From Pseudomonadota bacterium (GTDB lineage Bacteria > Pseudomonadota > Gammaproteobacteria > Burkholderiales > Thiobacillaceae), in the NCBI GenBank assembly GCA_021802945.1, contig JAJZRE010000010.1:1-51153 (forward strand): a stretch of 51,153 nt of DNA, read 5' to 3'. This document shows, piece by piece, positions 27,562 to 40,974 of this stretch. Position 1 is the first letter of the stretch. The number at the start of each line of letters is the position of its first letter. The position numbers and the translations under genes are program-made. Below the pieces are notes generated by a model. The model saw only the letters and a list, made by a program, of their open reading frames with translations. It was not told where the DNA came from and ran no database searches.

Positions 27562-27984
27562 ATGAGTTTCATGTCGGAATTCAAGGAATTCGCGGTCAAG
27601 GGCAATGCCATGGACCTGGCGGTGGGCGTCATCATCGGCGCGGCCTTCGGCAAGATCGTCGACTCCATCGTCAACGACCTCATCATGCCGATCGTCGGCG
27701 CGCTATTCGGCGGCTTCGATTTTTCCAACAAGTTCATCGCGCTGAAAGCCGTGCCGGAAGGCGTGGCGATGACGCTGGCCGAAGTGAAGAAAGCCGGGGT
27801 TCCGGTGTTTGCCTACGGCAGTTTCCTGACCATCCTGCTCAATTTCATCATTCTGGCGTTCATCGTCTTCATCCTCGTCAAGCAGCTCAACCGCTTCAAG
27901 AAGGAAGCGCCGCCCGCCGCCCCGGCCGCTCCGCCTGAAGACGTCGTGCTGCTGCGCGAAATCCGCGACAGCCTGAAAAAATAA
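27562..27984 (+). CDS. mscL: Large-conductance mechanosensitive channel
   Basis: A 140-residue protein starting [20 protein letters not shown]. The first helix with [20 protein letters not shown] forms the pore; the second helix is [21 protein letters not shown]; a Pro/Ala linker and the charged C-terminal helix REIRDSLKK complete the MscL pattern. It opens under membrane tension to release solutes at osmotic downshock. GGGGGAGG precedes ATG 27562 by about 5 bases. A strong terminator follows its stop. Confidence 0.97.
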
Positions 27985-28084: not shown

Positions 28085-28717
28085 CTATGGTTTGCCGGCG
28101 GAAAAATAGACCAGCAGGCTGGCGATTTCCTCGTCGGAGAACGGATTCTTCAGCGTGGTGCGGGGCACCCCGTGGATGCCCCCCAGCATTCGGGCTACGA
28201 ATTCCGCGGGCGGGGTCGATCGTGCCATCGCGAACAGATCCGGCGCGGGATTGGCAGCTTTCGGATCCGTGTACTGATGGCAGCCGATGCACAGCTGCCG
28301 GTAAATGCTTTGCCCTGTCCTGGCGCGCAGGGGCGTGGCGACGAGGGGGATGAAATAGGCGGTGTCCAGGGGAAAGGCCATCGCCAGGGACGTTGCGCGC
28401 CGCAGGAACAGGTCCGGCCTTTGGCGGTGGAAATCGGTCCGCAGGGCGGCGATGGAAGGCAGCAGGATTTGAGGGGAGGCAGGGCCGGGGTTCCCTGCCT
28501 CGCGGGCGGTCATCCCCAGCGTGCCCAGGGTACTGGCGATCCGGGCCCGCAGCCCGGCGCGGCGGACCGCGGGCGTCGCGGGGTCGGCGAGCAGTCGCGC
28601 ATCGCCCTGGAGAACGGCGACGTCGACTCGCAGCGCCCGGTCGTATTCTCCGGCGGCCAGCGCAGGCGCGCAGGCCGCCAGCAGCGTCAGGACCGTTATG
28701 CTGCGGCCGGGTCGCAT
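28085..28717 (-). CDS. Periplasmic monohaem cytochrome c, last gene of the sulfur cluster
   Basis: A 210-residue protein with a signal peptide (SITVLTLLAACAPALA) and a single haem c motif CIGCH at residues 143-147. Possible sixth ligands are Met164 or Met177; I do not see a typical loop. The roughly 120 residues before the haem motif are helical-looking and not recognised. It should act in the periplasm as an electron carrier or acceptor. It lies 7 bases downstream of the rhodanese gene and is the last of the eleven-gene run, which suggests that the pathway has an oxidative step. Confidence 0.85.
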   Translation of the reverse strand: MRPGRSITVLTLLAACAPALAAGEYDRALRVDVAVLQGDARLLADPATPAVRRAGLRARIASTLGTLGMTAREAGNPGPASPQILLPSIAALRTDFHRQRPDLFLRRATSLAMAFPLDTAYFIPLVATPLRARTGQSIYRQLCIGCHQYTDPKAANPAPDLFAMARSTPPAEFVARMLGGIHGVPRTTLKNPFSDEEIASLLVYFSAGKP

Positions 28718-28724
28718 GCCACCC

Positions 28725-29663
28725 TTATTGGACCTTGATCTTCTGCACCATGGGCAAGCTGGCGTTTGCCGACCATTGGCTCATCGAGCCGTCATAGACT
28801 TTGGCCGACTTGTTGCCCAGCAGTTCGCTGGAGACGAACCAGCCCAGGGACGCCCAGTGCCCCGTGTTGCAGAAGTTGATTTCCTCGCCCTTGAGCGGAA
28901 CGCCCGCTTCCTTGTACAAGGCCTTCAGTTCTGCCGGCGCGCGGAATGCGCCTCCGTTGTTGTCGGTGAACCAGCTCTCCGGCAGGTTCTTGGCGCCCGG
29001 GAGGGTGCCGTTGCGCGTCACTGCAGGGGTGTTCCGGTTGACCCCCAGATACTGATCGGCCGGACGGTTGTCCACCAGGACCACGCCACTTTTCATGGCC
29101 TTGGCCACGTCCGCCTCTCCCGGAACCATGTCCTTGCGGAAGCTGGCGGTGAAGGTCGCGGGCTTGGGCGTATTCGTGCCGGTCTCGATCTTGTTGCCCT
29201 TCACGGCCTCATAGGCGGCGTAGCCTCCGTCCAGGATGGAAACATTGTCGTCTCCCAGCACCTTGAAGGTCCAGTAGACGCGGGTGGCGCTGCCCATGTC
29301 GAGGCCGTTGAGGCCCGCCGAGTAGATCACCACATGGTCGCTGTTGCTGATGCCGAGGCTGCCGATCAGCTTCTCCAGAGCCGGCACCGGCGGCAGCATG
29401 CCCGGAATGTTGTTGACCTTGGTGCGCCAGCCGTCCTTCATGTAATCGCTGTATACGGCGCAGGGAATGTGGCCACGGAGATAATCCACCTTCGTGTGGC
29501 CGTCCAGCTGGTTGCGGATGTCCAGGATAACCACCCCGGGTTTGCAGGCATTTTCCTTGACCCACTGGACGTTCACCAGCGGGGTGGCCGAATCGGCCAG
29601 CGCCACGCCGCCGCCCAGGATCCATGCTGCGGTTATCGCGGTAGATACAGTCAGCTTCTTCAT
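28725..29663 (-). CDS. Periplasmic tandem-domain thiosulfate sulfurtransferase (rhodanese)
   Basis: A 312-residue protein with a signal peptide ending ALA before residue 24 (MKKLTVSTAITAAWILGGGV). Two rhodanese domains follow: the first has VVILDIRN and HIPCAVYSDY without a catalytic cysteine loop (VVIYSAGLNGLD); the second has VVLVDNRP and the active-site loop FCNTGHWAS. This is the classic tandem arrangement with activity in the second domain. It should transfer sulfane sulfur from a donor such as thiosulfate to an acceptor thiol in the periplasm. A Shine-Dalgarno GGAGGTTGAA precedes ATG 29663. Confidence 0.92.
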   Translation of the reverse strand: MKKLTVSTAITAAWILGGGVALADSATPLVNVQWVKENACKPGVVILDIRNQLDGHTKVDYLRGHIPCAVYSDYMKDGWRTKVNNIPGMLPPVPALEKLIGSLGISNSDHVVIYSAGLNGLDMGSATRVYWTFKVLGDDNVSILDGGYAAYEAVKGNKIETGTNTPKPATFTASFRKDMVPGEADVAKAMKSGVVLVDNRPADQYLGVNRNTPAVTRNGTLPGAKNLPESWFTDNNGGAFRAPAELKALYKEAGVPLKGEEINFCNTGHWASLGWFVSSELLGNKSAKVYDGSMSQWSANASLPMVQKIKVQ

Positions 29664-29687
29664 CAGTTCAACCTCCGTGTTATCGGA

Positions 29688-29873
29688 CTAAACAACAATA
29701 ATCCGGTCTGCTGCCAGCAGCGCGTGCAGCATCCGGTCCCACCCTTCTTCGTCGTCCGGCGAGGCCGGCATGGCCGGTTGCTGGACCGGGTGGTTCCGTG
29801 CAAGAACCGCCAGGGCCTCGACCAACATAATCCGATCGGGAAAAATCCCTGTTTCAAACACGACGAATTCCAT
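29688..29873 (-). CDS. Small unrecognised protein (61 residues) of the sulfur cluster
   Basis: A 61-residue protein starting MEFVVFETGIFPDRIMLVEA and ending LLAADRIIVV. It has no cysteine, no signal peptide and no membrane helix. Its start and length could fit a degraded or minimal DsrH/TusB-like or DsrE-fold subunit, because the two genes before it look DsrF- and DsrE-like, but the similarity is too weak to claim. GAGGGAA lies about 8 bases before ATG 29873, the gene lies between packed genes, and the reading frame is clean, so it is very likely expressed. Confidence 0.6.
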   Translation of the reverse strand: MEFVVFETGIFPDRIMLVEALAVLARNHPVQQPAMPASPDDEEGWDRMLHALLAADRIIVV

Positions 29874-29886
29874 TGCGTTGTTTCCC

Positions 29887-30165
29887 TCAGAAACTCATCA
29901 CCACGTCCGCCGAAAGGAGCGCATCGGCAAGGTGCGGCCTGTCCAGCAGCGGCAGGTCCGCATTGTCTACCGTGGTTTCGGGCGCAATTTCAGCCAGTTC
30001 CAGAAGCTCCGCCTGCTCGGCGTTTTCCTGCGTGTCGGCAACCGGCCGGTCCATGAACACCAGACGCACCTGGTGGCCGAAGATGGTCAGGCCTGCCGCT
30101 ACCCGCATGGCTTCCGCATGGTCCCGGCGCGCAAGCAGCAGTATCGATTTGATGTTTTCAGGCAT
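29887..30165 (-). CDS. DsrE/DsrF-fold protein without cysteine
   Basis: A 92-residue protein (MPENIKSILLLARRDHAEAM start) whose pattern of a hydrophobic first strand, a helix, AGLTIFGHQVRLVFMDRPV and a late SADVVMSF matches DsrE/F-like small proteins. It has no cysteine, so it cannot carry a persulfide itself. This fits a structural partner like DsrF/TusC. ATG 30165 with GAGG 6 bases upstream is preferred over GTG 30177, which overlaps the previous stop. It follows the cysteine-bearing DsrE-like gene closely. Confidence 0.7.
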   Translation of the reverse strand: MPENIKSILLLARRDHAEAMRVAAGLTIFGHQVRLVFMDRPVADTQENAEQAELLELAEIAPETTVDNADLPLLDRPHLADALLSADVVMSF

Positions 30166-30173
30166 GGGGCGCC

Positions 30174-30464
30174 TCACAGGGTCAGGATTTTTTCCGCAGC
30201 GCCGACCATGGCGCTGTGATTGGTCTGGCTGCCCAGTTCAACGGGACAGTCCGGCCGCCCCATGAAGCGGACCCAGGAATGGTCGCAAGCCACTTTTCGA
30301 GATGCGCCGTCCAACAGGGATACCAGCGCCGGGTCGCCCAGGAGTTTCACCCCGTCGTTGGTGAAGAAGCAGCCCCATTCCACGCGGTTTCTCGAACATG
30401 CCCGGGCCAGCGGCATCAGCAGGTGCCCGCCGAGGGCGGTGGATACCACGATCAGTAATTTCAT
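30174..30464 (-). CDS. DsrE-like cytoplasmic protein with four cysteines
   Basis: A 96-residue protein starting MKLLIVVSTALGGHLLMPLA, in the manner of DsrE-family sulfur carriers, with cysteines at 23, 32, 60 and 73 (WGCFFTNDGV, VACDHSW, RPDCPVEL). Cys60 or Cys73 could take the role of the persulfide cysteine of DsrE/TusD. No signal is present, so it should be cytoplasmic. It overlaps the upstream rhodanese-like gene by four bases. With the neighbouring cysteine-free proteins it could form a small DsrEFH-like complex, which is inference. Confidence 0.75.
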   Translation of the reverse strand: MKLLIVVSTALGGHLLMPLARACSRNRVEWGCFFTNDGVKLLGDPALVSLLDGASRKVACDHSWVRFMGRPDCPVELGSQTNHSAMVGAAEKILTL

Positions 30465-31435
30465 TTCTTGCTCAATCTCCCCAGGTACCAGCTGCCTGTC
30501 ATCAGAATCAGGAGCCCCAGGGCCGCGGCCCCGATACCCTTCGCCGGTATTGCCCCGGACCGGGGGACATGGCGGGTCTCGAGCGCCGTCATTGCCTTCA
30601 TGCCGTCCCGGTACGTCTCGGCGTCCACGGGCAGCCCCGGGTTGTTGGCCCAGGCTGCCCAGCCGTCCAGCAGCACCCGGGCATCGGCGCCTGCACCGGC
30701 CCGGGCCAGGGTGAAGTAGGCGACGGATTCGAACGGGTCGTGGCCGTACACCACGAAGGGTCCTGGCGGCAGATGTGCTTGCCCCTTGCTTATTTCCGCT
30801 CTCAGGTCCGTCATGGGCAGGGACTGGGCGCCAGGCAGGTGGCCGCCTCGCAGGGCACGTACGGTCTCGCCCCAGTAGGCTGCCGCGGGCCTGCCATCCA
30901 GCAGCACAGGGGCATGGGCGCGCTGAATCTCGGCGGCCAGTTCGCTGCGCAGCAGCATGGCGCCTTCCCTCGCCGTGCCCTCATAGATGGGCTGCCGGAG
31001 CATGCCTCGGGCCGCGCCAGGCCCCAGGCGGGATGCCGGAAGGCCGGCCCCGCCGGAGATCGGCTGGTTCAGCACCATGACCCGGGACTGCCCGGACAGA
31101 TACAGCATGCCGGCCACGAAATCGCGTTCGATGGGGTCGTCCCCCACCACCAGAACGGCATCCCGGGCGGCGATCCCGGCGGTTCCCAGCAGCCAGTAGA
31201 CATCCGGGAAGGCCGCCAGGCGGCCATGGGGCCCGAGAAAGTCCGCTGCCGGCAGGCACCGGGCACCCGCCACGGTGCGCTTGAGACAGGCGCTTTGGGC
31301 GCGCGCATCCACCACCGTGGAATGGTCGATGAATCCGCGGGCATCGGTCGTGTAGGCGAAATCCCCGCCCCAGGCCAGGCCGGACGCGGCGATGCCAAGC
31401 GACGACACCAACAACAGCGCCTTGGCCCGTTTCAT
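30461..31435 (-). CDS. Membrane-anchored rhodanese-like protein lacking the catalytic cysteine
   Basis: A 324-residue protein with an N-terminal signal (KALLLVSSLGIAASGLAWG), two rhodanese-like domains and a C-terminal membrane helix (GIGAAALGLLILMTGSWYLG) ending RLSKK. At the expected active-site loops the sequence reads VLVVGDDPIERD and FVVYGHDPFESVAY, with glycine where the cysteine should be. It keeps the fold markers DARAQSACL, LLDGRPAAAYW, GHLPGAQSLP and VLLDGWAAWANNPGLPV. Both domains should face the periplasm. A binding or scaffold role for sulfur proteins is likely; catalysis is not. ATG 31435 is preceded by AGGACGGGGAG. Confidence 0.82.
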   Translation of the reverse strand: MKRAKALLLVSSLGIAASGLAWGGDFAYTTDARGFIDHSTVVDARAQSACLKRTVAGARCLPAADFLGPHGRLAAFPDVYWLLGTAGIAARDAVLVVGDDPIERDFVAGMLYLSGQSRVMVLNQPISGGAGLPASRLGPGAARGMLRQPIYEGTAREGAMLLRSELAAEIQRAHAPVLLDGRPAAAYWGETVRALRGGHLPGAQSLPMTDLRAEISKGQAHLPPGPFVVYGHDPFESVAYFTLARAGAGADARVLLDGWAAWANNPGLPVDAETYRDGMKAMTALETRHVPRSGAIPAKGIGAAALGLLILMTGSWYLGRLSKK

Positions 31436-31445
31436 CTCCCCGTCC

Positions 31446-31718
31446 TCAGCAGCCCCCGAAACCGTGGGGCGCCTCATCCTGCGCGGCGGCGCTTCTGGAG
31501 GCGGGCGGGTTGGCTAAGTAGTAGTCGACAAGATCGCTCACCGACACGGTGCCGTACGCTTCGCCGAGGTCGAGATCGGCCATGGCTTCCACGGGCAGGG
31601 GCGTCCGCGCCCTTGACAGGGTGGCTGCCGGCACGGCGGCGTAGGGGTAGAGGGTCGCGCACAATCCCAGGGCGATGCCGAGGGAGACGGCCCAAAATGC
31701 CAGGACTTCTTTCTTCAT
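31446..31718 (-). CDS. Small membrane-anchored protein with C-terminal GGC tail
   Basis: A 90-residue protein: KK at the N-terminus, one hydrophobic segment (VLAFWAVSLGIALGLCATLY), a soluble part with DLGEAYGTVSVSDLVDYYL, a flexible Ala/Ser stretch, and the very last residues HGFGGC. By the positive-inside rule the C-terminus faces the periplasm. A free cysteine at the end of a glycine-rich tail resembles the substrate arm of SoxY (GGCGG) and, in principle, that of DsrC. No known family was recognised. AAGGATCC precedes ATG 31718 and overlaps the end of the next small gene. Confidence 0.75.
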   Translation of the reverse strand: MKKEVLAFWAVSLGIALGLCATLYPYAAVPAATLSRARTPLPVEAMADLDLGEAYGTVSVSDLVDYYLANPPASRSAAAQDEAPHGFGGC

Positions 31719-31730
31719 GGGGCGGATCCT

Positions 31731-31823
31731 TCAGAACACGTCATGGGCCAGGCAGAGGTAGGTGATGTAGAAGGCCACCACGAACATGACCAGCTGCACG
31801 ATGGTTTCGAAATCAAGCGTCAT
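31731..31823 (-). CDS. 30-residue single-span membrane microprotein
   Basis: ATG 31823 to TGA 31731 encodes 30 residues: an acidic start MTLDFETI, a membrane segment VQLVMFVVAFYITYLCLAH and the end DVF. The gene is supported by its ATGA overlap with the gene upstream, AAGGAAAGGA about 9 bases before the start, and an exact fit in the gap between two packed genes. Its size and design resemble small subunits of membrane complexes. It may stabilise the transporter or the anchored rhodanese; no family was recognised. Confidence 0.7.
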   Translation of the reverse strand: MTLDFETIVQLVMFVVAFYITYLCLAHDVF

Positions 31824-32041
31824 GGCCTGCTGTCCTTTCCTTCGAAATGGCGAACCAGCATGCCCACATCCAATGGCTTGCCGTCGACCGGGTTGATGAC
31901 GGAGGGTGTGAAATAGGGCACTCCGTCCCGGGTCGCGCGCAGATAGCCCGGTTCGGTGGCAAAGATGTAGGCAAGGCCGCCCACCGTGACCGCCGCGGAG
32001 ACGGCGGAGAACAGCACCATTTGTATCTTCCCGAATGTCAT
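31820..32041 (-). CDS. Small single-span membrane protein (73 residues)
   Basis: It starts MTFGKIQMVLFSAVSAAVTV with one membrane helix (about residues 8-28) followed by about 45 residues predicted in the periplasm, including VPYFTPSVINPVDGKPLDVG. No cysteine is present. I do not recognise the family. ATG 32041 has GAGGG about 10 bases upstream; a longer frame to 32080 would overlap the TusA-like gene. It overlaps the 30-residue gene (ATGA), so the two are coupled and probably act together. Confidence 0.7.
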   Translation of the reverse strand: MTFGKIQMVLFSAVSAAVTVGGLAYIFATEPGYLRATRDGVPYFTPSVINPVDGKPLDVGMLVRHFEGKDSRP

Positions 32042-32052
32042 GGCGCGTGCCC

Positions 32053-32361
32053 TCAGTCTTTTCTGACGAACACGCGCCAATGACGATCCGCCCGGACAGT
32101 GGCCAGATGCGTGCTGGCCAGGTCCTTCATCATGGGAGGAATGGCTTCCATGGAGGTCGGGTTGTCAACCATGACCTCGAACACCTCCCCTGGAGACGCG
32201 CCAGTCAAGGCCTTCTTCGTCATGAGCTGGGGACGTGGGCAGGAATCCCCGAGACAGTTGATTTGCTGTTTGATGCTGACGCGGCTTCCGTCAGGTAATG
32301 TGGCTTCTGTTGCCGTGGCGGCGCTGGCCGCAGGGTCTGCTTTCTTGCTGAAAAGTCCCAT
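32053..32361 (-). CDS. TusA-family sulfur carrier
   Basis: A 102-residue cytoplasmic protein. The TusA core starts near residue 32 (INCLGDSCPRPQLMTKKAL) with the CPxP motif at Cys41 and an extra Cys36; an Ala-rich N-terminal extension of about 25 residues precedes it. TusA proteins bind persulfide sulfur at the CPxP cysteine and hand it to partners such as DsrE or DsrC. It lies directly downstream of the two transporter genes, as TusA-like genes often do beside YeeE/YedE transporters (for example TsuB with TsuA). AGGAGAA precedes ATG 32361. Confidence 0.9.
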   Translation of the reverse strand: MGLFSKKADPAASAATATEATLPDGSRVSIKQQINCLGDSCPRPQLMTKKALTGASPGEVFEVMVDNPTSMEAIPPMMKDLASTHLATVRADRHWRVFVRKD

Positions 32362-32385
32362 CTTGTTCTCCTGTTCAGATCATGC

Positions 32386-33078
32386 CTATGCGGACTGCTC
32401 GGCGGCCACTCGGGCTGCCCCCTGTGGCACCGCCGTTTCATTGCCGGCCCAGGCATCGCAGGCCGCCGATTCGCGGGCGGCCGCCGCTTCCGAGGTTCGG
32501 GCGCCGGCGCGTTCCCGGCGCAGGATTGCCCGGTAGATGCCGAACAGCACCAGGGTCTGCACGGCGCCGAAGACGATCGCCGGAACATGGGTCTTCTCCT
32601 GCAGGGTGGCGGCGTTGGCAAAGCCCAGCTGCAGGCCCGCCAGGTTGTGGACGCCGGTCATGGTGTCCGGGGCCGGCGGCCAGTAGATGAAAGACCACAG
32701 CAGCGAAAACAGGAACATGCCGATAAATGTGAACATCAGGGCCCAGATGGCGCCGATGTTGCCCTCCCCGGCCTTGACCCAGGTGGAAACCGTGCATGCC
32801 CCGGCGAGCACCATGCCGATGCCGAACAGGAACAAGCCGGCGAAGGTGTTCAGCCCCACATCGAAGTGCATGGGCTTGCCTGCCCCCACGGTGATGAAGG
32901 CGGTAAAGCCCAGGGTGAGGATCATCATGGCGACCAGCAGCGCCTTGGTGTTGCGGTAGGTTTTGAACAGCATCGCATCCCGCAGGGCGGCCACGTTGCA
33001 GTAGCGGGAACGTTGCACCAGCAGGCCAACGACGGAGCCGAAGACAAAGGCGGTGAGGCATTGGGCAGTCGCGTTCAT
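32386..33078 (-). CDS. YeeE/YedE-type transporter, second half
   Basis: A 230-residue membrane protein. Conserved elements are QRSRYCNVAALRDAMLF (Cys27) and GIGMVLAGACTVSTWVKAGEGN (Cys95), which match the cysteine motifs of the C-terminal half of YeeE/YedE sulfur-transport proteins such as the thiosulfate importer TsuA. Several helices follow, then a polar Ala/Arg-rich tail of about 40 residues in the cytoplasm. It lies 7 bases after the gene for the other half. The substrate is likely a small sulfur oxyanion or sulfide species; it cannot be read from sequence. Confidence 0.88.
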   Translation of the reverse strand: MNATAQCLTAFVFGSVVGLLVQRSRYCNVAALRDAMLFKTYRNTKALLVAMMILTLGFTAFITVGAGKPMHFDVGLNTFAGLFLFGIGMVLAGACTVSTWVKAGEGNIGAIWALMFTFIGMFLFSLLWSFIYWPPAPDTMTGVHNLAGLQLGFANAATLQEKTHVPAIVFGAVQTLVLFGIYRAILRRERAGARTSEAAAARESAACDAWAGNETAVPQGAARVAAEQSA

Positions 33079-33085
33079 GTGTCAG

Positions 33086-33577
33086 TCATCCCTCCAGGCT
33101 TTTCTTGTAGATCCACGTGCCCACCCAGGCGCCGGCCAGGATTCCGCTGATGGCCAGATAGCCTCCCAGGTTCATTTCAGGGGTGAGCCCATAGAAGGTG
33201 CTGACATTGCAGACGAAGGCCAGGCGGATGCCGATCCCCATGAGGAGGCCGCCGATGGTGATCATGACCCACTCGGACAGGCGGTGGGGCATGCGCCAGC
33301 TGAATTCCTTGCTCAGGACGGCACCGACCACCGCACCGAACAGCATGCCGAGGCTGATGTAGATCTTCCAGTAGCCCGGATCGGGCGGGAAAGCGACATT
33401 CCAGAACGGAATTCGGGAGAGGGACTCCCCCATGAAAAGCCGGGCGATGAGCCCGGTCATCATGGTTTCGCCGCCGCCTACGGTCCAGGAACCTACGATC
33501 TGAAAAAGAAAGATGTCCAGCACGGCGATCATGGCCATGGCGGACACCGGGCTAAGGGTTTTTTTGAATAGCGCCAT
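33086..33577 (-). CDS. YeeE/YedE-type transporter, first half
   Basis: A 163-residue membrane protein and the first gene after the sigma-54 promoter. It has membrane segments around SAMAMIAVLDIFLFQIVGSW, ISLGMLFGAVVGAVLS and GGLLMGIGIRLAFVCNVSTF, the last carrying Cys123 in the position of the conserved GGCNIG motif of the family. Together with the following gene it supplies the three conserved cysteines known to be important in TsuA. ATG 33577 has CGGAG about 8 bases upstream; the longer frame to 33640 crosses the promoter and is rejected. Confidence 0.88.
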   Translation of the reverse strand: MALFKKTLSPVSAMAMIAVLDIFLFQIVGSWTVGGGETMMTGLIARLFMGESLSRIPFWNVAFPPDPGYWKIYISLGMLFGAVVGAVLSKEFSWRMPHRLSEWVMITIGGLLMGIGIRLAFVCNVSTFYGLTPEMNLGGYLAISGILAGAWVGTWIYKKSLEG

Positions 33578-33602
33578 CCAGCTGCTCCGAGAGTGGGTTT
33601 GA

Positions 33603-33623
33603 AAACACCTGCAGAAGGTGTTT
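33603..33623. promoter_or_regulatory. Palindrome at the predicted transcript start of the sulfur operon
   Basis: AAACACCT (33603-33610) and AGGTGTTT (33616-33623) are exact inverted repeats separated by GCAGA. On the minus strand they begin about 13 bases after the -12 element, so they cover roughly +2 to +22. This could be an operator for a repressor or a 5' hairpin that protects the transcript. The pairing is visible; the role is inferred. Confidence 0.6.
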
Positions 33624-33635
33624 GCCCCTACCTTG

Positions 33636-33651
33636 AGCAACCGCTGTGCCA
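33636..33651 (-). promoter_or_regulatory. Sigma-54 promoter of the sulfur operon
   Basis: Read on the minus strand from 33651 to 33636 the sequence is TGGCACAGCGGTTGCT, matching the sigma-54 consensus TGGCAC-N5-TTGCW with the required GG/GC spacing. It lies 59 bases before the first transporter ATG (33577) and directly downstream of a gene for a sigma-54-dependent activator. The transcript start is expected near 33625. Confidence 0.88.
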
Positions 33652-33697
33652 GAATCGTTTAGTGTTGTTGTTTCATGGGCTTGGCGCGAGGATGGTG

Positions 33698-33717
33698 ACC
33701 CGGACGAAGCGCCGGGT
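33698..33717. promoter_or_regulatory. Dyad, candidate enhancer site for the sigma-54 activator
   Basis: ACCCGG (33698-33703) and CCGGGT (33712-33717) are inverted with 8 bases between. The centre is about 80 bases upstream of the predicted transcript start, the usual range for an NtrC-type upstream activating sequence. It lies just after the activator gene's stop. No T tract follows on the minus strand, so it is a poor terminator. Confidence 0.5.
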
Positions 33718-33728
33718 GGCTCATATCG

Positions 33729-35087
33729 CTACAGGTCTGTATCAGAATCGGCCAGAGCGGGAAGGTCCATTTCCTGGAGCTTGCGACGCAGTGTGGAGCG
33801 GCTGATATCAAGCCGCCGGGCGGCCGCCACCTGGTTGCCCTGGCAGGCATCGAGCGTTTCCCGAATGTAGTCCGCTTCCATCTCGGCGAGGGACTTCCGC
33901 TTGTCCGCGGAAGGCTTGGGCGCATGCATGGAAATGGCCACTTCGCCCGCATCCAGTACCGGTCCTGCGTAAAGGGCGAAGCTTCGCTCGATGACGTTTT
34001 TGAGTTCCCGGACATTGCCCGGCCAGTCGTAGTCCAGCAGCTTCTGCTTGGCTGCCGGGCTCAGGCCCAGGTCGCCGTTCTTCAGCCTTTGCCGTTCCAT
34101 GTCCAGGAAATGTTCCGCCAGAGGCAGGATGTCTTCCTGCCGTTCCCGCAGGGGGGGGATGTCGATGGGCAGGACGTCCAGGCGGAACAGCAGGTCGCTG
34201 CGGAAGCTGCCCTCCGTTGCCATCTGCTCCAGGTCCCGGTTGGTGGCCGCGATAATCCGCACATCCACCTTGACCGCCGTTTCGCTGCCCACGGGCCGGA
34301 CCTCGCCTTCCTGGAGCACCCGCAGCAGCTTGGCTTGCAGGCGGGGACTGATGTCGCCGATCTCGTCCAGGAACAGGGTTCCGCCATGCGCCTGCTGAAA
34401 CAGTCCCTTGCGGTTGCTGGTGGCGCTGGTGAAGGAGCCCTTGATATGTCCGAAAAGCTCGGAGTCCAGCAGGTCTTCGGGCAACGTGCAGCAGTTGATG
34501 GCGACGAAAGGGCCTTCGCTGCGGTTGCTGACGCTGTGGATGGCACCTGCGAGGATTTCCTTGCCGGTGCCGGTCTCCCCGGTGATCAGCACGGGAAGTT
34601 CCCGTTCCCGAATCCGTTCCACAATTTCGAGGATCTTGGCCATGCGCGGGCTGCGCGCGACGATGTGGCCAAGCTGGCTGCGCCCGAGCAGCTCGCCGCG
34701 CAGGCGGGTGACTTCTTCCCGCAGGGAATTGCGCTCCAGCACCTTGCGGATACGCAGCAGCAGCTCGTCCGGGTTGATGGGTTTGGTCAGGTAATCGTAG
34801 GCGCCCAGGCGCATGGCCTCGACTGCGGATTCGATCGAGGCGTAGGCGGTCATCATGATGCTTTCCGCCGGGTAGGCGCTTTCCCTGAGATAAGCCAGCA
34901 GGTCAAGGCCGTTTTCCGGGCCGATACGCATGTCGGTGATCACCAGGTCCACGATATGCCGGTCCAGATGAGCCCGGGCTTCCTCCAGAGTCGAGGCCTC
35001 CAGGGCTGCGTGGCCGTCGCCCTTGAGCAGCAGCCCCAGGGTCTTCCGGATGGAGAATTCGTCGTCAACAATCAGGATGGTCGCCAT
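33729..35087 (-). CDS. Sigma-54-dependent response regulator (NtrC family) of the sulfur cluster
   Basis: A 452-residue protein: a receiver domain with phospho-acceptor Asp52 (LVITDMRIGPENG), an AAA+ domain with Walker A GETGTGK (170-176), Walker B GGTLFLDEIGD and the arginine-finger region DLLFRLDVLPI, and a Fis-type helix-turn-helix at the end (NQVAAARRLDISRSTLRRKL). The loop that contacts sigma-54, normally GAFTGA, reads GSFTSA (217-222). It is the third gene of the sensor operon, 2 bases after the kinase gene, and the sigma-54 promoter of the sulfur operon lies right behind it. Confidence 0.95.
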   Translation of the reverse strand: MATILIVDDEFSIRKTLGLLLKGDGHAALEASTLEEARAHLDRHIVDLVITDMRIGPENGLDLLAYLRESAYPAESIMMTAYASIESAVEAMRLGAYDYLTKPINPDELLLRIRKVLERNSLREEVTRLRGELLGRSQLGHIVARSPRMAKILEIVERIRERELPVLITGETGTGKEILAGAIHSVSNRSEGPFVAINCCTLPEDLLDSELFGHIKGSFTSATSNRKGLFQQAHGGTLFLDEIGDISPRLQAKLLRVLQEGEVRPVGSETAVKVDVRIIAATNRDLEQMATEGSFRSDLLFRLDVLPIDIPPLRERQEDILPLAEHFLDMERQRLKNGDLGLSPAAKQKLLDYDWPGNVRELKNVIERSFALYAGPVLDAGEVAISMHAPKPSADKRKSLAEMEADYIRETLDACQGNQVAAARRLDISRSTLRRKLQEMDLPALADSDTDL

Positions 35088-35089
35088 GC

Positions 35090-36553
35090 TTATCCGCCAC
35101 TGTCCAGTTCAAAACTGATCTCGCTGCCTATCCCCAGTTCGCTTGAAACCGAAAGCTGGGAGCGGTGCTGGATCAGAATCCGTTGCACGATCGCCAGGCC
35201 CAGGCCGGTGCCGTCCCGGCGCCCGGTGACGAAAGGCTTGGTCATTTCCTTGATGAAATCCGGTTTTATGCCGCAGCCGGTGTCGGCCACGGTAACGACG
35301 ATCTTGTCGCCCCGGCGGGCGGTGCGAAGGGACAGCAGGCCGCCGTCACCCATGGCCTGCACCGCATTCAGGACCAGGTTCCACACGACTTGCCGCATGT
35401 GGTCGTGGTCGAACACCGCCAGCCGGGCGCCCGGTGGGCACGCCACGGCCACGCGGATGTTTTTTTCCTGGGGCAGGTCCTGGCGAAGCATGCCTGCGAC
35501 TTCTTCGATCAGTGCCGCCAGATTGCCTCGTGCCGGCTGGGACTCGCGAATCTTGGCGAAGTCGAGGAAGTCGCTGAGGATGCGATTCAGTCGGTGGGAT
35601 TCGCTGTTCAGGATGCTGATGACCTGGGACCGCTCGTCCCCGTGGAGGGCGTCGCCGCTCAGCAGGTTGACCGAATTGATCACCGCCGACAAGGGGTTGC
35701 GGATTTCGTGGGCGATGCTGGCGGACATCTCACCCACGCAGGCCAGGCGTTCCGCCTGGGTGCGCTGGCGATGCTCCCGCAGGGCTTCCTCCGATGCGTG
35801 TCTGAGGGACGCCACCATGTTGTTGAAGGCGATGGCCAGCATGCCAATTTCATCCCGTGACGTGATGGGCAACTGGACATCCAGATCCCCTTTGCCGATC
35901 TTGGCGGTGGCTTCCACCATGCCGCGCAGCTTCCGCGTGGTGGCCAGCGAGAGCGCCCAGGCGGCGAAGCTGCCGACTACCAGGGCGAGCAATATGAAGA
36001 AGATGCCGTCCCGCCAGGTCTTGTGCATGGCCGAGTCCATGCGGTACGTGGACAGCCCGAGGGTGACCGTGCCCACCACCTGGCCTGCGATCCGGATGTC
36101 CTCCCGCAGGTCCAGGGTGGGGTCGCCCGACGCGAGCGGAAACCTGTCGGAGTGGCTGACGCGCGGAGGGCGGCGCTTGCCGAGCCGGTCGGGCGTGGTG
36201 GTGCCGAGGATGTAGCCGCGCGAATCGGAGATTTCGCAGAAAGCCACGTCGGGCTGGCGTTCCACCTTCTGGATGATCTCCGCCAGGGCGCCAAGGTCTT
36301 CGGTAAGCAGCGCATTGGTGGAGGCCACGGCGGTCATGGAGATCAGGGCATGGCCACGGTTGAGCAGTTCCTGCTCGATCCGGTCGGCTTGCTCCCGGAC
36401 CGCTGCCGCCGCAAAGATGCCCATCAGTACAACATGTACCAGGGCCACCGACAGGATCAGACGGAAGCGCAGGGTTTGGAGCGGCGCAGTACGCAACGGC
36501 ACGGCGCCGGCAGTCGGCGTAGCAAGGGCGGTCTTGGCGGCTGCGGCAGTCAT
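35090..36553 (-). CDS. Membrane sensor histidine kinase of the sulfur cluster
   Basis: A 487-residue protein with two membrane helices (about 31-51 and 183-204) enclosing a periplasmic domain of about 130 residues, then HAMP, HisKA with His282 (MSASIAHEIRNPLSAV) and HATPase (NLVLNAVQAM, VADTGCGI, GTGLGLAIV). It is the usual partner of an NtrC-type regulator. Its ATG overlaps the stop of the PhnD-like gene (ATGA), so the binding protein and the kinase are made together, which suggests that the binding protein presents the ligand to the periplasmic domain. Confidence 0.94.
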   Translation of the reverse strand: MTAAAAKTALATPTAGAVPLRTAPLQTLRFRLILSVALVHVVLMGIFAAAAVREQADRIEQELLNRGHALISMTAVASTNALLTEDLGALAEIIQKVERQPDVAFCEISDSRGYILGTTTPDRLGKRRPPRVSHSDRFPLASGDPTLDLREDIRIAGQVVGTVTLGLSTYRMDSAMHKTWRDGIFFILLALVVGSFAAWALSLATTRKLRGMVEATAKIGKGDLDVQLPITSRDEIGMLAIAFNNMVASLRHASEEALREHRQRTQAERLACVGEMSASIAHEIRNPLSAVINSVNLLSGDALHGDERSQVISILNSESHRLNRILSDFLDFAKIRESQPARGNLAALIEEVAGMLRQDLPQEKNIRVAVACPPGARLAVFDHDHMRQVVWNLVLNAVQAMGDGGLLSLRTARRGDKIVVTVADTGCGIKPDFIKEMTKPFVTGRRDGTGLGLAIVQRILIQHRSQLSVSSELGIGSEISFELDSGG

Positions 36554-37410
36554 TCGCCGACGCCGTCGTATTGCCGGTCATTGGCGGCTACAAATCCCTG
36601 GGGCAGCGCCATGCCTTTAAGAATGGCGCGGCCGCGAGGCGTCGTGCCCAGTTCCGTGAGCACCTCCACGATGGCCTTCGTGTCGGCAGGGGGCATGTCG
36701 TTGCGCACGGCAATGGGCATCTGCGGCTCCGGCGGAGTTTCGGCAATCACCCGCAAATCGTCCCGCACTTCTCCGGGCATGGAGCGAAGGGAAGGCTTCC
36801 ATGTGCCTGCCACGTCCACCAGGCCGGAATACAGGGCCATCAGGACTGAATCCTGGGACCCGAAGTATTTGACCTGGAAGGCGCGGTCCACGTCGATGCC
36901 AAGCCGGGTGAGATAGCGCCGGGTCATGACCGTGGCCGCGTAAGCGCCCGGATCAGGAAAGCCGATGCGGAGGCGGGGTGGAAGCTGTGCCGGGTCCATG
37001 TCCTTCAGCCGACTGTCCCGGCGTACAACGAGAATGCCCGTGAAGGGCTCTCCCGCCACCTTGGCCACCACGTGATAGCCATCCGCCTTGGCCCGGGAGA
37101 AAAGGAGAGGATTAAGGTAGACGATGTCGAAGTTCCTGTCCGCGACACGGGCCATGAAGGTGGAAAAGCTCGGGGCCGTGACGAACTGCACCGGCCGTCC
37201 GAGGCGCTCGCTCAAGGCCTGGGTCAAGGGAAGGAACATGACGGCCAGTTTATTCGGGCTTTGAAGGGGCAGGACGCCGAATCGGTAAGCGCCCTGATCC
37301 GCCATCGCCGGCAAAGTGCCGGCGGATGCGGCCAGCAGCGACAGAGCCAGGCGGACTATTGTGCCGGCCAGCCCGGAAGGGGGAAAAAGGAGACGACTGC
37401 GCTTGCCCAT
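36550..37410 (-). CDS. PhnD-like periplasmic binding protein, probable input sensor
   Basis: A 286-residue protein with a signal peptide (IVRLALSLLAASAGTLPAMA) and the fold of phosphate/phosphonate-type ABC binding proteins (YRFGVLPLQSPNKLAVMFLP, FDIVYLNPLLFSRA, GILVVRRDS, RIGFPDPGAYAATVM, VDVAGTWKPS). No ABC permease or ATPase gene is nearby, and it is translationally coupled to the kinase. It is therefore best read as a ligand-binding sensor accessory of the two-component system, perhaps for a sulfur oxyanion. ATG 37410 is chosen; TTG 37419 and GTG 37413 are possible. Confidence 0.85.
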   Translation of the reverse strand: MGKRSRLLFPPSGLAGTIVRLALSLLAASAGTLPAMADQGAYRFGVLPLQSPNKLAVMFLPLTQALSERLGRPVQFVTAPSFSTFMARVADRNFDIVYLNPLLFSRAKADGYHVVAKVAGEPFTGILVVRRDSRLKDMDPAQLPPRLRIGFPDPGAYAATVMTRRYLTRLGIDVDRAFQVKYFGSQDSVLMALYSGLVDVAGTWKPSLRSMPGEVRDDLRVIAETPPEPQMPIAVRNDMPPADTKAIVEVLTELGTTPRGRAILKGMALPQGFVAANDRQYDGVGE

Positions 37411-37505: not shown

Positions 37506-40232
37506 TTAGTGGGCGCGTTCCCAATTGGGTCCGATACCCACCTCGGCCCTGAGCGGTACTTCGAGCTGTGCGACGTTGCACATGAGCGCGGCGAGCGCTT
37601 CCTTGATACCGGGGAGTTCGCCTTCCGGCACTTCGAGCACCAGTTCGTCATGCACCTGCATCACCAGCCTGGTTTGCAGGCTGTGTCTGTCGAGATGATC
37701 CTGCACGGCGATCATCGCCAGCTTGATGAGGTCGGCGGCGGTGCCCTGCATCGGCGCGTTGATCGCGGCCCGCTCGGCGCCCTGGCGGCGCTGCGGATTC
37801 TTCGCGTTGATCTCCGGCAGGTAGAGCCGGCGGCCGAACACGGTCTCGACGTAGCCCTGGCTGCGCGCCGCCTCGCGCGTGCGCTGCATGTAGTCGGCCA
37901 CGCCGGGATAGCGCGCGAAGTAGCGGTCGATCCAGGCCTGCGCGGCGGCGCGTTCGAGGTTGAGCTGGCTCGCCAGGCCGAACGCCGACATGCCGTAGAT
38001 GAGTCCGAAGTTGATGACCTTGGCCATGCGCCGCTGATCGCTGTTCACGTCGGCCAGCGGCACGCCGAACACTTCGGCGGCGGTCGCGGTGTGGATGTCG
38101 CGGTTCTCGGCGAAGGCGGTCAGCAGGCCGGCGTCGCCCGAGAGGTGCGCCATGATGCGCAGCTCGATCTGCGAATAGTCGGCCGACACCAGCACGTGCC
38201 CGGGCGGGGCGATGAAGGCCTCGCGGATGCGGCGGCCCTCGGCGGTGCGTGCGGGGATGTTCTGCAGGTTGGGGTCGGAACTCGCCAGCCGCCCGGTCAC
38301 CGCGGTGGCCTGAGAATAGCTGGTGTGCACGCGCCCGGTGGCCGGGTTGATCATCTGCGGCAGCTTGTCGGTGTAGGTCGACTTCAGCTTGGCCATGCCG
38401 CGGTAGTCGAGAATCGCCCGCGCGATGGGATGGTCGAGCGCGAGCTGTTCCAGCGTTTCCTCGTCGGTGGACGGCGCGCCGCTCGGGGTCTTCTTGACGA
38501 CCGGCAGGCCTTTCTGCGCGAACAGGATGTCGCCGATCTGCTTGGGCGAGCCGAGATTGAACGGCTGGCCGGCCTCCTGGTAGGCGCGCTGTTCGAGCTC
38601 CAGCATCTTGCGGCCGAGTTCGCCGCTTTGCACCGCCAGCAGATTCCGGTCGATCAGCACGCCGGCGCGCTCCATGCGGAACAGGATCCCGGCCACCGGC
38701 AGCTCGATGTCGCGATACACGAAGCCCAGCTTGTCCGACGCGGCGATCCGCGGCGCCAGCGCATCGCGCACGCGCAGCGTGACGTCGGCATCCTCGGCCG
38801 CGTATTCGCTGGCGCGCTCGATCGCGACCTGTTCGAAGCCGATGCGGGCCGCGCCCTTGCCGGTGACGTCGTCGTAGCTGATCGTGGCGAGGCCCAGGTG
38901 GCGCGACGCCAGGTTGCCGAGCTCGTGCGGCTGGTGCGCTTCGAGCACGTAGGACTGCAGCAGCGTGTCGTCGACGACGCCGCCGAGCGCGATGCCGGCG
39001 TTGGCGAACACGTGGCGGTCGTACTTGAGGTGCTGGCCGACGATCTTCGGCTCGCGGCTTTCCAGCAGCGGCTTCAGCTTCGCCAGCACGGCGTCGCGAT
39101 CCAGCTGCGCGGGCGCGCCGGCATAGTGATGCGCCAGCGGCAGGTAGGCGGCTTCGCCGTGGGCGGTGGCGAACGAGATGCCCACCAGTTCGGCCTGCAT
39201 GGCGTTGAGGCTGGTGGTTTCGGTGTCGAGCGCGAAGGCCGGTGCCGCGTTCAGTTTGGCGATCCAGGCGTCGAGCTGGGCTTCGTCGAGGATCGTCGCG
39301 TAATGCGCGCGGTGGCCGCCGCTGCAATCCTGCTCGGGCGCGTCGGGGCTCGCCGTCGCGGCGGCGTCGAGCTCGCGCAGCCAGGTGCGGAATTCGTAGC
39401 GCTCGAACAGCGGCCGCAGCACGTCGGCGTCGCGCGGCTTCAGCACGAGGTTGTCGAAATCGAAGGGCAGCGCCACGTCGGTCTTGATGGTGATCAGCAC
39501 GCGCGCTTGCGGCAGCCAGTCGCGGGCGGCGCGCAGGTTGTCGCCGACCACGCCCTTGATCTCGTCGGCGTGCGCCAGCAGGTTGTCGAGGGTGCCGTAT
39601 TCGGTCAGCCATTTGACCGCGGTCTTCGGCCCGCATTTGGCGACGCCCGGGACGTTGTCGACCGCGTCGCCGACCAGCGTGAGGTAGTCGACGATGCGCT
39701 CGGGCGGCACGCCGAACTTGGCGGCCACGCCTGCCGGGTCGAGCGTTTCCTCGCTCATGGTGTTGACCAGCGTCACATGGCCGTCGACCAGCTGCGCCAT
39801 GTCCTTGTCGCCGGTGGAGACGATGCTGCGGATGCCTTTCTGCGCGGCATGCCGCACCAGCGTGCCGATCACGTCGTCGGCCTCGACGCCGTCGATGACG
39901 ACGAGCGGCCAGCCTTCGGCGCGGATCGCCTCAAACAGCGGTTCGATCTGGCTGCGCAGATCGTCCGGCATCGGCGGGCGGTGGGCCTTGTAGTCGGGAT
40001 AGAGGTCGTCGCGGAAGGTCCTGCCCTTCGCGTCGAACACGCAGGCGATATAATCGGCCGCATGGTCCTTCCGCAGCCTGTGCAGCATGGAGAGCACGCC
40101 CTTGATCGCATTGGTCGGCTCGCCGGCCGAATTGCGCAGGTCGGGCAGCGCATGGAATGCGCGATACAGGTAGGACGAGCCGTCCACCAATAACAGGATT
40201 TTTCTGGGCTGGCTTACATTAGAATCGTTCAC
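37506..40232 (-). CDS. polA: DNA polymerase I
   Basis: A 908-residue protein with all three domains: 5' nuclease (LLLVDGSSYLYRAFHALPDL, VSTGDKDMAQLV), 3'-5' exonuclease with intact acidic motif (FALDTETTSLNAMQAE) and polymerase (SADYSQIELRIMAHLSGD, INFGLIYGMSAFGLA, LVMQVHDELVLEVPE). It fills gaps in repair and processes Okazaki fragments. GTG 40232 is the likely start because conserved sequence begins at once and no ATG is available; the longer frame to 40301 runs into the divergent gene. Only 13 bases separate it from that gene's ATG. Confidence 0.96.
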   Translation of the reverse strand: MNDSNVSQPRKILLLVDGSSYLYRAFHALPDLRNSAGEPTNAIKGVLSMLHRLRKDHAADYIACVFDAKGRTFRDDLYPDYKAHRPPMPDDLRSQIEPLFEAIRAEGWPLVVIDGVEADDVIGTLVRHAAQKGIRSIVSTGDKDMAQLVDGHVTLVNTMSEETLDPAGVAAKFGVPPERIVDYLTLVGDAVDNVPGVAKCGPKTAVKWLTEYGTLDNLLAHADEIKGVVGDNLRAARDWLPQARVLITIKTDVALPFDFDNLVLKPRDADVLRPLFERYEFRTWLRELDAAATASPDAPEQDCSGGHRAHYATILDEAQLDAWIAKLNAAPAFALDTETTSLNAMQAELVGISFATAHGEAAYLPLAHHYAGAPAQLDRDAVLAKLKPLLESREPKIVGQHLKYDRHVFANAGIALGGVVDDTLLQSYVLEAHQPHELGNLASRHLGLATISYDDVTGKGAARIGFEQVAIERASEYAAEDADVTLRVRDALAPRIAASDKLGFVYRDIELPVAGILFRMERAGVLIDRNLLAVQSGELGRKMLELEQRAYQEAGQPFNLGSPKQIGDILFAQKGLPVVKKTPSGAPSTDEETLEQLALDHPIARAILDYRGMAKLKSTYTDKLPQMINPATGRVHTSYSQATAVTGRLASSDPNLQNIPARTAEGRRIREAFIAPPGHVLVSADYSQIELRIMAHLSGDAGLLTAFAENRDIHTATAAEVFGVPLADVNSDQRRMAKVINFGLIYGMSAFGLASQLNLERAAAQAWIDRYFARYPGVADYMQRTREAARSQGYVETVFGRRLYLPEINAKNPQRRQGAERAAINAPMQGTAADLIKLAMIAVQDHLDRHSLQTRLVMQVHDELVLEVPEGELPGIKEALAALMCNVAQLEVPLRAEVGIGPNWERAH

Positions 40233-40245
40233 GAGGCGCTCGAAA

Positions 40246-40974
40246 ATGCACTTGGATAAATTGCCTGCCACCGCCGACCCGGGGCGCACCGCCGAGATCA
40301 ACTACTCGGCACGCGAGTCATGGCGGATGCTGGGAATTATGGCAGAGTTCGTCGAGGCGACCGAACGGCTGGCATCCATCCGGCCGGCCGTGTCGATTTT
40401 CGGCAGCGCGCGCACGCCGCCCGACCATGCGTACTACATGCTGACCGAAATCATCGCGCGCAAGCTGTCGGATGCCGGCTTCTCGGTCGTGTCCGGCGGC
40501 GGCCCCGGCATCATGGAAGCGGCCAACAAGGGCGCGTATTTCGGCAAGTCGCCGAGCGTCGGCCTCAACATCCAGCTGCCGCACGAACAGTCATCCAATG
40601 CCTACCAGGACATCAGCCAGACCTTCCAGCACTTCTTCGCGCGCAAGGTCATGTTCGTCAAATTCGCCGCCGCCTACGTCGTCATGCCGGGCGGCTTCGG
40701 CACGCTGGACGAACTGTTCGAGGCGCTGACCCTGGTGCAGACCGGGAAGATCGCCGGCATCCCCATCATCCTGGTCGGCTCGAAGTTCTGGGCGGGGCTG
40801 GCCGAGTGGGCGAAGGACAGGCTGGTCACCGAGGGCATGATTTCGCCTGAGGACGTTGATCTGTTGCGTATCATCGACACGCCGGAAGAGGTGGTCGAGG
40901 CCATCTTCAGCCATTATGAGAAACGCGGCTTCATGCCCTCGCTGGCCGAGCGCGAAATCCAGCTCAATCTTTGA
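40246..40974 (+). CDS. LOG-family protein (TIGR00730 type)
   Basis: A 242-residue Rossmann-like protein with SIFGSARTPPD, SVVSGGGPGIMEAANKGAY and VVMPGGFGTLDELFEALTL, the signatures of the LOG/lysine-decarboxylase-like family. Members with the PGGxGTxxE motif are nucleoside-5'-monophosphate phosphoribohydrolases (LOG, PpnN); this longer form has unclear substrate. It is cytoplasmic. The gene is divergent from polA with 13 bases between starts, so its promoter must lie within the polA coding region. Confidence 0.88.
   Translation: MHLDKLPATADPGRTAEINYSARESWRMLGIMAEFVEATERLASIRPAVSIFGSARTPPDHAYYMLTEIIARKLSDAGFSVVSGGGPGIMEAANKGAYFGKSPSVGLNIQLPHEQSSNAYQDISQTFQHFFARKVMFVKFAAAYVVMPGGFGTLDELFEALTLVQTGKIAGIPIILVGSKFWAGLAEWAKDRLVTEGMISPEDVDLLRIIDTPEEVVEAIFSHYEKRGFMPSLAEREIQLNL

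Follow-up and report, generated by a model that had tools for sequence, protein, structure and literature searches.

A conserved twelve-gene sulfur cassette in a Thiobacillaceae genome is an elaborated relative of the yeeE-tusA-dsrEFH cluster

Results

The window analyzed here is a stretch of 51,153 nucleotides on contig JAJZRE010000010.1 of a Thiobacillaceae assembly (GCA_021802945.1; 2.55 Mb, 83 contigs, 87.6% complete). Its minus strand carries a cassette of twelve genes that is related in kind to the yeeE-tusA-dsrEFH (YTD) cluster but more elaborate, and that is equipped with a sensor in the group to which the window belongs. The cassette encodes a split YeeE/YedE transporter, a TusA-family sulfur carrier, the small proteins s1, s2 and s3, two rhodanese-like proteins, a trio of DsrEFH-like proteins and a c-type cytochrome.

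Positions 28085-37410 comprise 15 genes, a sensor trio followed by the twelve-gene operon. The sensor genes code for a PhnD-like binding protein, a histidine kinase and a sigma-54 regulator, and neighbours among them either overlap or are 2 bp apart. A gap of 151 bp containing a promoter separates them from the operon, inside which genes overlap slightly or are separated by no more than 24 bp. An earlier reading of the sequence (hereafter the original prediction) had described two packed units with a sigma-54 promoter between them, and this layout was borne out in place and strand; its count of fourteen genes was one too low, the 61-aa gene at 29688-29873 being the one likely missed. The families assigned by Pfam are Phosphonate-bd, HisKA/HATPase, Sigma54_activat, split Sulf_transp, TusA, Rhodanese twice, and c-type cytochrome. 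Scans of the window with Rfam and for tRNAs and tandem repeats gave nothing relevant.

Conservation of the cassette

The GTDB contig collection was searched with the profile of the DsrF-like protein (DsrEb), and 80 of 109 relatives were kept as loci and annotated with hidden Markov models; five of the 80 repeat genomes that also appear elsewhere in the analysis under G numbers. All twelve cassette genes are present in 55 of the 80 loci, which belong to alpha-, beta- and gammaproteobacteria, and a number of the incomplete loci stop at a contig end. The gene order, taken over the genes each locus holds, is kept in 74 of 80. The linkage is far beyond chance; its absence had been set beforehand as counting against the original prediction, and it proved very strong. 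Within the order, the membrane-anchored rhodanese (mRhd) matched 51 of the 300 genomes at E <= 0.001, with five strong matches besides the window (E < 1e-60), four shorter ones (1e-21 to 1e-26) and a weak remainder. The nine regions around the stronger matches show an identical gene order, with s2 not found in two of them (L036, L037) and a third (L033) cut within the cytochrome gene. No constant extra neighbour was found among the flanking open reading frames of at least 110 aa, the widest group obtained by single linkage covering 15 loci.

Conserved cysteines of the transporter, carrier and membrane proteins

The residue counts below exclude sequences scoring less than 40 bits (25 bits for s2 and s4) and include the five repeated genomes as well as the window. 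The transporter is encoded by two half genes in swapped order and not as one full-length chain: the C-terminal half, YeeA (33086..33577, minus strand, as are all genes of the region), covers Sulf_transp positions 171-310 and precedes the N-terminal half, YeeB (32386..33078), which covers positions 1-166. YeeA aligns to the YeeE of S. thermophila (8j4c/6leo) with FVCNVSTF over GGCNIGHF, and its Cys123 is found in 77 of 77 sequences. In YeeB, Cys27 (79/79) aligns to residue 22 of 6leo, a cysteine, and Cys95 (80/80) to the cysteine of the LAGGC motif. All three transport cysteines of the S. thermophila protein are thus retained across the two halves. The genes of the halves and of TusA adjoin, and are present in 68, 70 and 71 of the 80 loci.

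The TusA-family carrier (32053..32361; TusA 2.7e-16) has an N-terminal extension, and its Cys41 is present in all 81 sequences. Its start (window 32341-32361) reads MG(L/F/I)F followed by lysines in ten aligned sequences, lies outside the TusA domain and is perhaps a membrane contact.

The next gene encodes s1 (31820..32041), a protein of 73 aa with one hydrophobic segment by eye, found in 72 of 80 loci. It is followed by that of the small hydrophobic s2 (31731..31823; 30 aa), for which a score limit set as low as 12 bits gave matches in 70 of 80 loci. Neither has a Pfam or NCBIfam family over the cut-off, and in neither does a cysteine column reach 40%. The third small protein, s3 (31446..31718; 90 aa), is hydrophobic at its N-terminus by eye, ends on a conserved Gly-Gly-Cys tail and has no Pfam or NCBIfam match. 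Its C-terminal cysteine occurs in 84 of 84 sequences, preceded by glycine in every case (xGC 84/84) and by two glycines in 74 (GGC).

Rhodaneses and cytochrome

The tandem rhodanese-like mRhd (30461..31435; Rhodanese 1.6e-8) was modelled with AlphaFold2 (AF2) at a predicted local distance difference test (pLDDT) score of 90.5. The model shows the rhodanese fold with terminal helices at residues 2-18 and 301-323, and Foldseek matched it to thiosulfate sulfurtransferases (1.4e-12). The protein had been described as cysteine-less, which does not hold: the window's mRhd has exactly two cysteines, Cys50 and Cys60, each conserved in 85 of 85 sequences, and neither of them, judging from the alignment, lies in the usual catalytic loop. 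It is shorter than 300 residues in 40 of the 85 sequences; in four short forms that were aligned (L034-L037) the second rhodanese domain is largely gone and the cysteine-bearing first domain is kept.

The second rhodanese, pRhd (28725..29663; Rhodanese 5.6e-20), is a periplasmic protein of the active type with the loop CNTGHWAS and a signal peptide identified by eye. It matches bovine rhodanese (1rhd) at 1.3e-29, and its Cys265 is found in 80 of 80 sequences. It was not seen beside the cassette in eight loci of one lineage (L081, L085, L088, L090, L092, L093, L106 and L113). The last gene of the operon encodes a single-haem c-type cytochrome (28085..28717; Cytochrome_CBB3 5.4e-8), whose CxxCH motif is present in all 84 sequences with residues at this place.

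The DsrEFH-like trio

The trio consists of the DsrE-like DsrEa (30174..30464), with Cys60 as its presumed active residue, the DsrF-like DsrEb (29887..30165), which has no conserved cysteine, and the DsrH-like 61-aa protein s4 (29688..29873), which is found in 79 of 80 loci. DsrE/F-like proteins had been proposed by the original prediction. Pfam gave no DsrE match for any of the three window proteins, and the proposal stands through weak DsrE matches of 10 of 62 DsrEa sequences (best 4.7e-4), the modelled fold of DsrEa and profile comparison with hhalign. The AF2 model of DsrEa has a pLDDT of 97. Its six best Foldseek matches in the PDB are 3pnx_A (DsrE), 2pd2 (a Sulfolobus protein without a named function), 2d1p (TusBCD), a designed cage, 2qs7 (DsrE/DsrF-like) and 3pnx_B, with E-values from 1.2e-3 to 6.1e-3, none below 0.001, at a probability of 1.00; four of the six are DsrE, DsrF or TusBCD chains from three entries. 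Cys60 of DsrEa occurs in 88 of 88 sequences and is probably the functional cysteine, while in DsrEb and s4 no cysteine column reaches 40%. PDB sequence searches with the three profiles gave nothing convincing.

For comparison, a cluster of another genome of the same order (G145, L132:8510-13211) was used. It encodes F-, E- and H-like small proteins, a mannosyltransferase-like protein of 583 aa, YeeE in full length and TusA; it adjoins a regulator of the PAS-LuxR type and is regarded as YTD-like. With one sequence per protein, this cluster stands in for the published type II DsrEFH. The hhalign probabilities were 93.3% for DsrEa with the E-like, 95.1% for DsrEb with the F-like and 92.6% for s4 with the H-like protein, at identities of 27% (96 columns), 25% (87) and 26% (39), respectively; the other six pairings all stayed below 4%. 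Against the canonical DsrE, DsrF and DsrH of four dsr operons the values were 5.1%, 28.9% and 0.4%. Judged by these profiles, the cassette trio is matched one to one by the YTD-like trio and is unlike canonical DsrEFH. When 349 Pseudomonadota genomes were searched with the E-like protein of L132, no match at E <= 0.001 was obtained, an empty answer that is uninformative.

Sensor, promoter and operator-like element

The sensor trio comprises a PhnD/ArrX-like periplasmic binding protein (36550..37410; Phosphonate-bd 3.3e-52), a sensor histidine kinase (35090..36553; HAMP, HisKA, HATPase_c and a weak sCache) and a sigma-54-dependent response regulator of the NtrC/AtoC type (33729..35087; Response_reg, Sigma54_activat 2.5e-68 and the Fis-type HTH_8). 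The closest solved relatives of the binding protein are ArrX (6x6b, 2.4e-12), the phosphite-binding HtxB and an entry with a name ending in Aio, taken as AioX. The cysteine of ArrX, probably the counterpart of AioX Cys106, aligns with Asn100; the window protein contains no cysteine at all, and a conserved cysteine column is absent among 25 sequences. In make-up, the trio is a sensor of the AioXSR type, from which the arsenic-binding cysteine is predicted to be missing. The prediction that the system has its own three-part sensor was right for the window and not for the system as a whole, the trio lying within 18 of the 80 loci, where it either precedes the cassette, like that of the window, or follows the cytochrome gene; contig ends cut some loci.

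For the promoter, palindrome and Fisher counts, the five repeat genomes (L042, L043, L045, L052, L061) were dropped. Upstream of YeeA, a -24/-12 promoter, TGGCACAGCGGTTGCT (33636..33651, minus strand), agrees with the sigma-54 consensus TGGCACN5TTGCW without mismatch. A site with at most one mismatch precedes YeeA in 17 of the 20 loci that have the regulator, a set that includes L098 (regulator only) and several near relatives (L038-L040, L029/L030, L031/L032, L050/L054, L083/L095), and in 9 of 50 sensor-less loci (Fisher p 2.6e-7); single-base shuffles reach such a site at 0.3%. Seven of the nine sensor-less loci belong to the lineage lacking pRhd. In two kin of this lineage, L103 and L114, genes for a kinase and a binding protein lie close by on the opposite strand, and each has a one-mismatch site; having no regulator match, these two loci were placed in neither group.

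Further upstream lies a 28-bp palindromic element with the core GATACAGACCTGTAGC (33722..33749, minus strand), a candidate binding site (upstream activator site) for the regulator that overlaps the stop codon of the regulator gene. The element, with the general core GNNACA-N4-TGTNNC, is located upstream of the promoter in 17 of the 20 regulator-positive loci and has no match in L079, L084 and L098. Twelve defining sites were chosen by eye, and the other five (20-28 bits) come from near relatives of the defining loci. The top score in 52 other loci was 9.1 bits; two sensor-less loci, L097 and L105, reached a shuffle p of 0.01 but low scores (9.1 and 4.8). When each defining site was left out together with its nearest relatives, 11 of 12 were recovered, with L075 failing (p 0.125) and L029 borderline (0.05). 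The palindrome is kept where the trio sits downstream (L031, L032) and is therefore more than conserved coding sequence. It is operator-like and goes with the regulator. Together, promoter and palindrome give comparative support to the sigma-54 control that had been predicted. A different palindrome, guessed for the sensor-less loci, was not confirmed, with 2 of 52 loci.

Between the sigma-54 promoter and YeeA, a perfect short hairpin, AAACACCT-TCTGC-AGGTGTTT (33603-33623), was noticed by eye and is partly kept in L038. In 11 sensor-less loci (L051, L060, L064, L066, L068, L076, L086, L091, L097, L100, L110), a divergent gene for a ribbon-helix-helix (RHH) protein of the RHH_4 family lies upstream of YeeA. 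These proteins have recurring cysteines, such as FNAC, DQC and SSCLRVIC, and may regulate the sensor-less cassettes, possibly as thiol-based sulfur sensors. The grouping of flanking proteins put such RHH proteins together in eight loci, one of them shared with the 11.

Co-occurrence with dsrA and soxB

Among the 300 genomes of the order, the DsrF-like profile matched 13, of which 11 were strong (E 2.5e-36 or better) and two weak, and 61 had dsrA over the family cut-off. The dsrA gene was found in 9 of the 11 cassette-positive and in 52 of the 289 other genomes (Fisher p 1.4e-5, kinship ignored); soxB was over the cut-off in 11 of 11 and in 129 of 289 (p 1.8e-4, kinship ignored). Of the two cassette genomes not counted for dsrA, one (G161) has the gene in fragments and the other (G092) a sulfite-reductase-like match alone. 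Over the whole locus set, dsrA exceeds the cut-off in 63 of 80 cassette genomes, and large fragments are present in six more. This co-occurrence supports the predicted delivery toward Dsr.

Hosts, genomic context and history

According to their titles, the hosts include Thiobacillus, Sulfuriferula multivorans (L029/L043, where the sensor accompanies the cassette), Sedimenticola selenatireducens, Thiorhodococcus mannitoliphagus and Magnetovibrio blakemorei as well as Rhodobium orientis, Maritimibacter, Sulfuritalea and Acidiferrobacter. A tree was calculated by a quick method from five concatenated proteins of 71 loci, loci missing any of the five genes being excluded. The window groups with Thiobacillus. 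The betaproteobacterial cassettes need at least three changes of group, and the sensor label needs seven; a clade of 36 rows, with a support of 100 in the Shimodaira-Hasegawa-like approximate likelihood ratio test (SH-aLRT), is without the sensor trio.

In the window, the cassette is flanked by polA (37506-40301; named from reading of the sequence) and mscL (27562-27984; Pfam), and its G + C content is 0.64 compared to 0.65 in the flanks. Four members of the same family were compared. In G167, which is also of the same genus, and in G231, mscL directly follows polA at a distance of about 70 and 54 bp, respectively, without a cassette (L145, L147). The other two (G711, G043) have different genes at this place, and the cassette is absent in the stretch shown. 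Three Thiobacillus loci (L038-L040) resemble the window in that polA and mscL flank the cassette, with an extra 1.4 kb or so before mscL. The simplest reading of these arrangements is that the cassette was gained in part of the lineage, loss being the alternative. One of the three (L039) is on a contig binned as Rhizobium sp., with a Thiobacillus-type cassette and Thiobacillus-like flanks; the label is probably a binning error. No relative of mRhd or DsrEb was found on the viral contigs searched, and the plasmid search gave none for DsrEb and one weak rhodanese match for mRhd, on a Sulfuricella plasmid.

Discussion

The original prediction knew of no described system with this gene set. It overlooked the YTD or type II yeeE-tusA-dsrEFH clusters (PMC13293266, PMC13047784) and the AioXSR sensors (PMC5908839). 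Type II DsrEFH was reported from 985 genomes, adjoining yeeE and tusA in bacteria, and goes with reductive dsrAB in 73.9% and with oxidative dsrAB in 4.7% (PMC13293266). In the same article, the subtypes were set at 40% identity and subtype 1 contains 21% Pseudomonadota, so that some of the loci described here may already be among its genomes. Elsewhere the type II trio was judged DsrEFH-like yet not orthologous (PMC13047784), and complete YTD clusters were confined to Desulfobacterota and Nitrospirota in the set of PMC12998232. The cassette shares with these clusters the grouping of a YeeE-family transporter, TusA and a small DsrE/F/H-like trio (PMC13047784, PMC8780430), a DsrE-like subunit with one invariant cysteine and a trio unlike canonical DsrEFH. 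It differs by the split transporter, two rhodaneses, the GGC protein, two small proteins and the cytochrome c, and its trio is just 25-27% identical to that of L132. Furthermore, its hosts are proteobacteria, mostly with dsrA (oxidative and reductive types pooled), whereas the published type goes mostly with reductive dsrAB (PMC13293266). With canonical (type I) DsrEFH the trio has the DsrE fold and a presumed delivery to DsrC in common, but the profile probabilities are low, and type I is present additionally in the four dsr operons read. No description of the twelve-gene set was found in the open literature (including PMC12142623 and PMC6397845), a scope outside which most subscription papers and all bioRxiv preprints lie.

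The single parts have counterparts as well. SoxT1A and TsuA belong to the YeeE family and import sulfane sulfur or thiosulfate, but SoxT and TsuA are single chains in contrast to the two half genes found here (PMC11582611). PmpA and PmpB are also half transporters, but with one cysteine each (PMC11582611), compared to two transport cysteines in YeeB and one in YeeA. The C-terminal Gly-Gly-Cys carrier tail of s3 resembles that of SoxYZ. SoxY carries a GGCGG arm, whereas s3 ends at its cysteine, has no family match and is, by eye, hydrophobic near its N-terminus. Three-component systems with a sigma-54 regulator are known from AioXSR, and AioXSR and ArxXSR share with the window a periplasmic binding protein, a histidine kinase, an AtoC-type sigma-54 regulator and an RpoN promoter before the target operon (PMC5908839). 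They differ in the probable arsenic-binding cysteine, which is replaced in the window, and in the target, which here is a sulfur cassette with the operator core described above.

The best-supported mechanism is that of a regulated trans-envelope relay importing sulfane sulfur and feeding reverse Dsr (rDsr), which we hold to be somewhat the more probable account; the substrate, the direction and the order of handover are inferred. The periplasmic pRhd and the anchored mRhd, through Cys50 and Cys60, would take sulfane sulfur from thiosulfate, polysulfide or a Sox-bound persulfide, and the membrane-tethered s3 would ferry it, in the manner of SoxY, on its mobile C-terminal cysteine to the split YeeE, with the cytochrome c removing electrons upon thiol oxidation. 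Via the three conserved YeeE cysteines the sulfur would move to TusA, from there to Cys60 of the DsrE-like subunit in a DsrEFH-like trimer and finally to DsrC and rDsrAB. Where the sensor is present, as in the lineage of the window, its PhnD/ArrX-like protein would sense a periplasmic oxyanion and signal through kinase and regulator to the sigma-54 promoter. In favour of this relay, the relay or catalytic cysteines are invariant in YeeA, YeeB, TusA, s3, mRhd, DsrEa and pRhd, and a cable-bacterial trio passes sulfur from TusA via DsrEFH to DsrC in vitro (PMC13293266).

Several observations weigh against it. In 11 of the 80 cassette genomes there is no dsrA, a trace of it or just a sulfite-reductase-like match, and G092 has the cassette without dsrA; several genes of that cassette (L129, G092:C1:1289000-1307000) are frameshifted, for which decay and sequencing error are both possible. 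Conversely, 52 of the 61 dsrA-positive genomes of the order are without the cassette, which is therefore accessory and not required for rDsr. The four dsr operons that were read all come from genomes with the cassette (G286, G045, G095 and Thiorhodococcus) and contain canonical dsrEFH besides, so that a second DsrEFH needs a reason. The low identity of the trio to that of L132, the sigma-54 site in 9 of 50 sensor-less loci, the eight loci without pRhd and the kinship disregarded in the co-occurrence tests have to be added.

Alternatively, the split YeeE could import intact thiosulfate, which TusA would split as YeeD does, the rhodaneses processing the released parts; thiosulfate would then be the only supply, and no sulfane relay on carrier proteins would exist. 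YeeE/TsuA is a characterised thiosulfate transporter (PMC11582611, PMC13047784) whose three cysteines are retained here, and pRhd is nearest to thiosulfate sulfurtransferases, but such an uptake could do without s3, mRhd, the cytochrome and the trio, each of them about as frequent as the transporter. Moreover, thiosulfate failed to load cable-bacterial TusA, type II DsrEFH or DsrC (PMC13293266). We regard this explanation as unlikely. Still less probable is an outward flow, with the cassette acting in the export or deposition of sulfur or in disproportionation, as was once proposed for YTD clusters. These were suggested as a marker of disproportionation and reported as overexpressed during it (PMC8780430, PMC12998232). 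However, PMC13293266 argues otherwise for YTD and found the transfer from DsrEFH to DsrC unidirectional in vitro, and the cassette hosts are proteobacteria, with soxB in all 11 cassette genomes of the order.

Two further explanations start from the nearest relatives of single proteins. The best NCBIfam relatives are the selenium-related YedE/FdhT for YeeA/YeeB and YedF for TusA, and ExtH ranks second for pRhd, all far under the cut-offs; together with the presence of the cassette in Sedimenticola selenatireducens, this would fit a YedE/YedF-like transporter and carrier that reduce or move selenium or tellurium oxyanions with an ExtH-like rhodanese. The association with dsrA and soxB and the DsrEFH-like trio speak against such a role, as does the fact that several of the named hosts are known sulfur oxidisers, and it is considered very improbable, though no search was aimed at selenium genes. 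Marginally lower still stands a response to arsenic, in which a sensor of the ArrX/AioX type would control the handling of thiolated arsenic. ArrX and the Aio entry are among the nearest solved relatives of the PhnD-like protein, and AioR, too, is a regulator of the sigma-54 kind that goes with an RpoN promoter (PMC5908839), but the cysteine position of ArrX is occupied by Asn100 in a protein without any cysteine, and the trio was not seen in 62 of 80 loci; no search was aimed at arsenic genes.

The import relay toward rDsr can be extended to a joint reading, which we put forward tentatively, as possible but doubtful. The cassette would be a trans-envelope sulfur pipeline, complete and self-contained, whose DsrEFH would rank as a third kind after types I and II and have its own periplasmic loading arm. 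The tethered GGC protein would act as a swinging arm handing sulfane sulfur from the rhodaneses or SoxYZ to the split YeeE, and the block would move between lineages and swap its regulator, using a ribbon-helix-helix protein in some and an XSR sensor, together with an operator for it, in others.

The comparison suggests that DsrEFH-like transferases are more varied than two types. The passage of sulfane sulfur from the periplasm to the cytoplasm is called poorly understood (PMC11582611), and the cassette provides a defined set of genes, present in named strains, whose cysteines are clear targets for mutation; one group also offers a promoter and a candidate operator. If the joint pipeline reading is true, it would close the gap that separates Sox chemistry in the periplasm of proteobacteria from rDsr in their cytoplasm.

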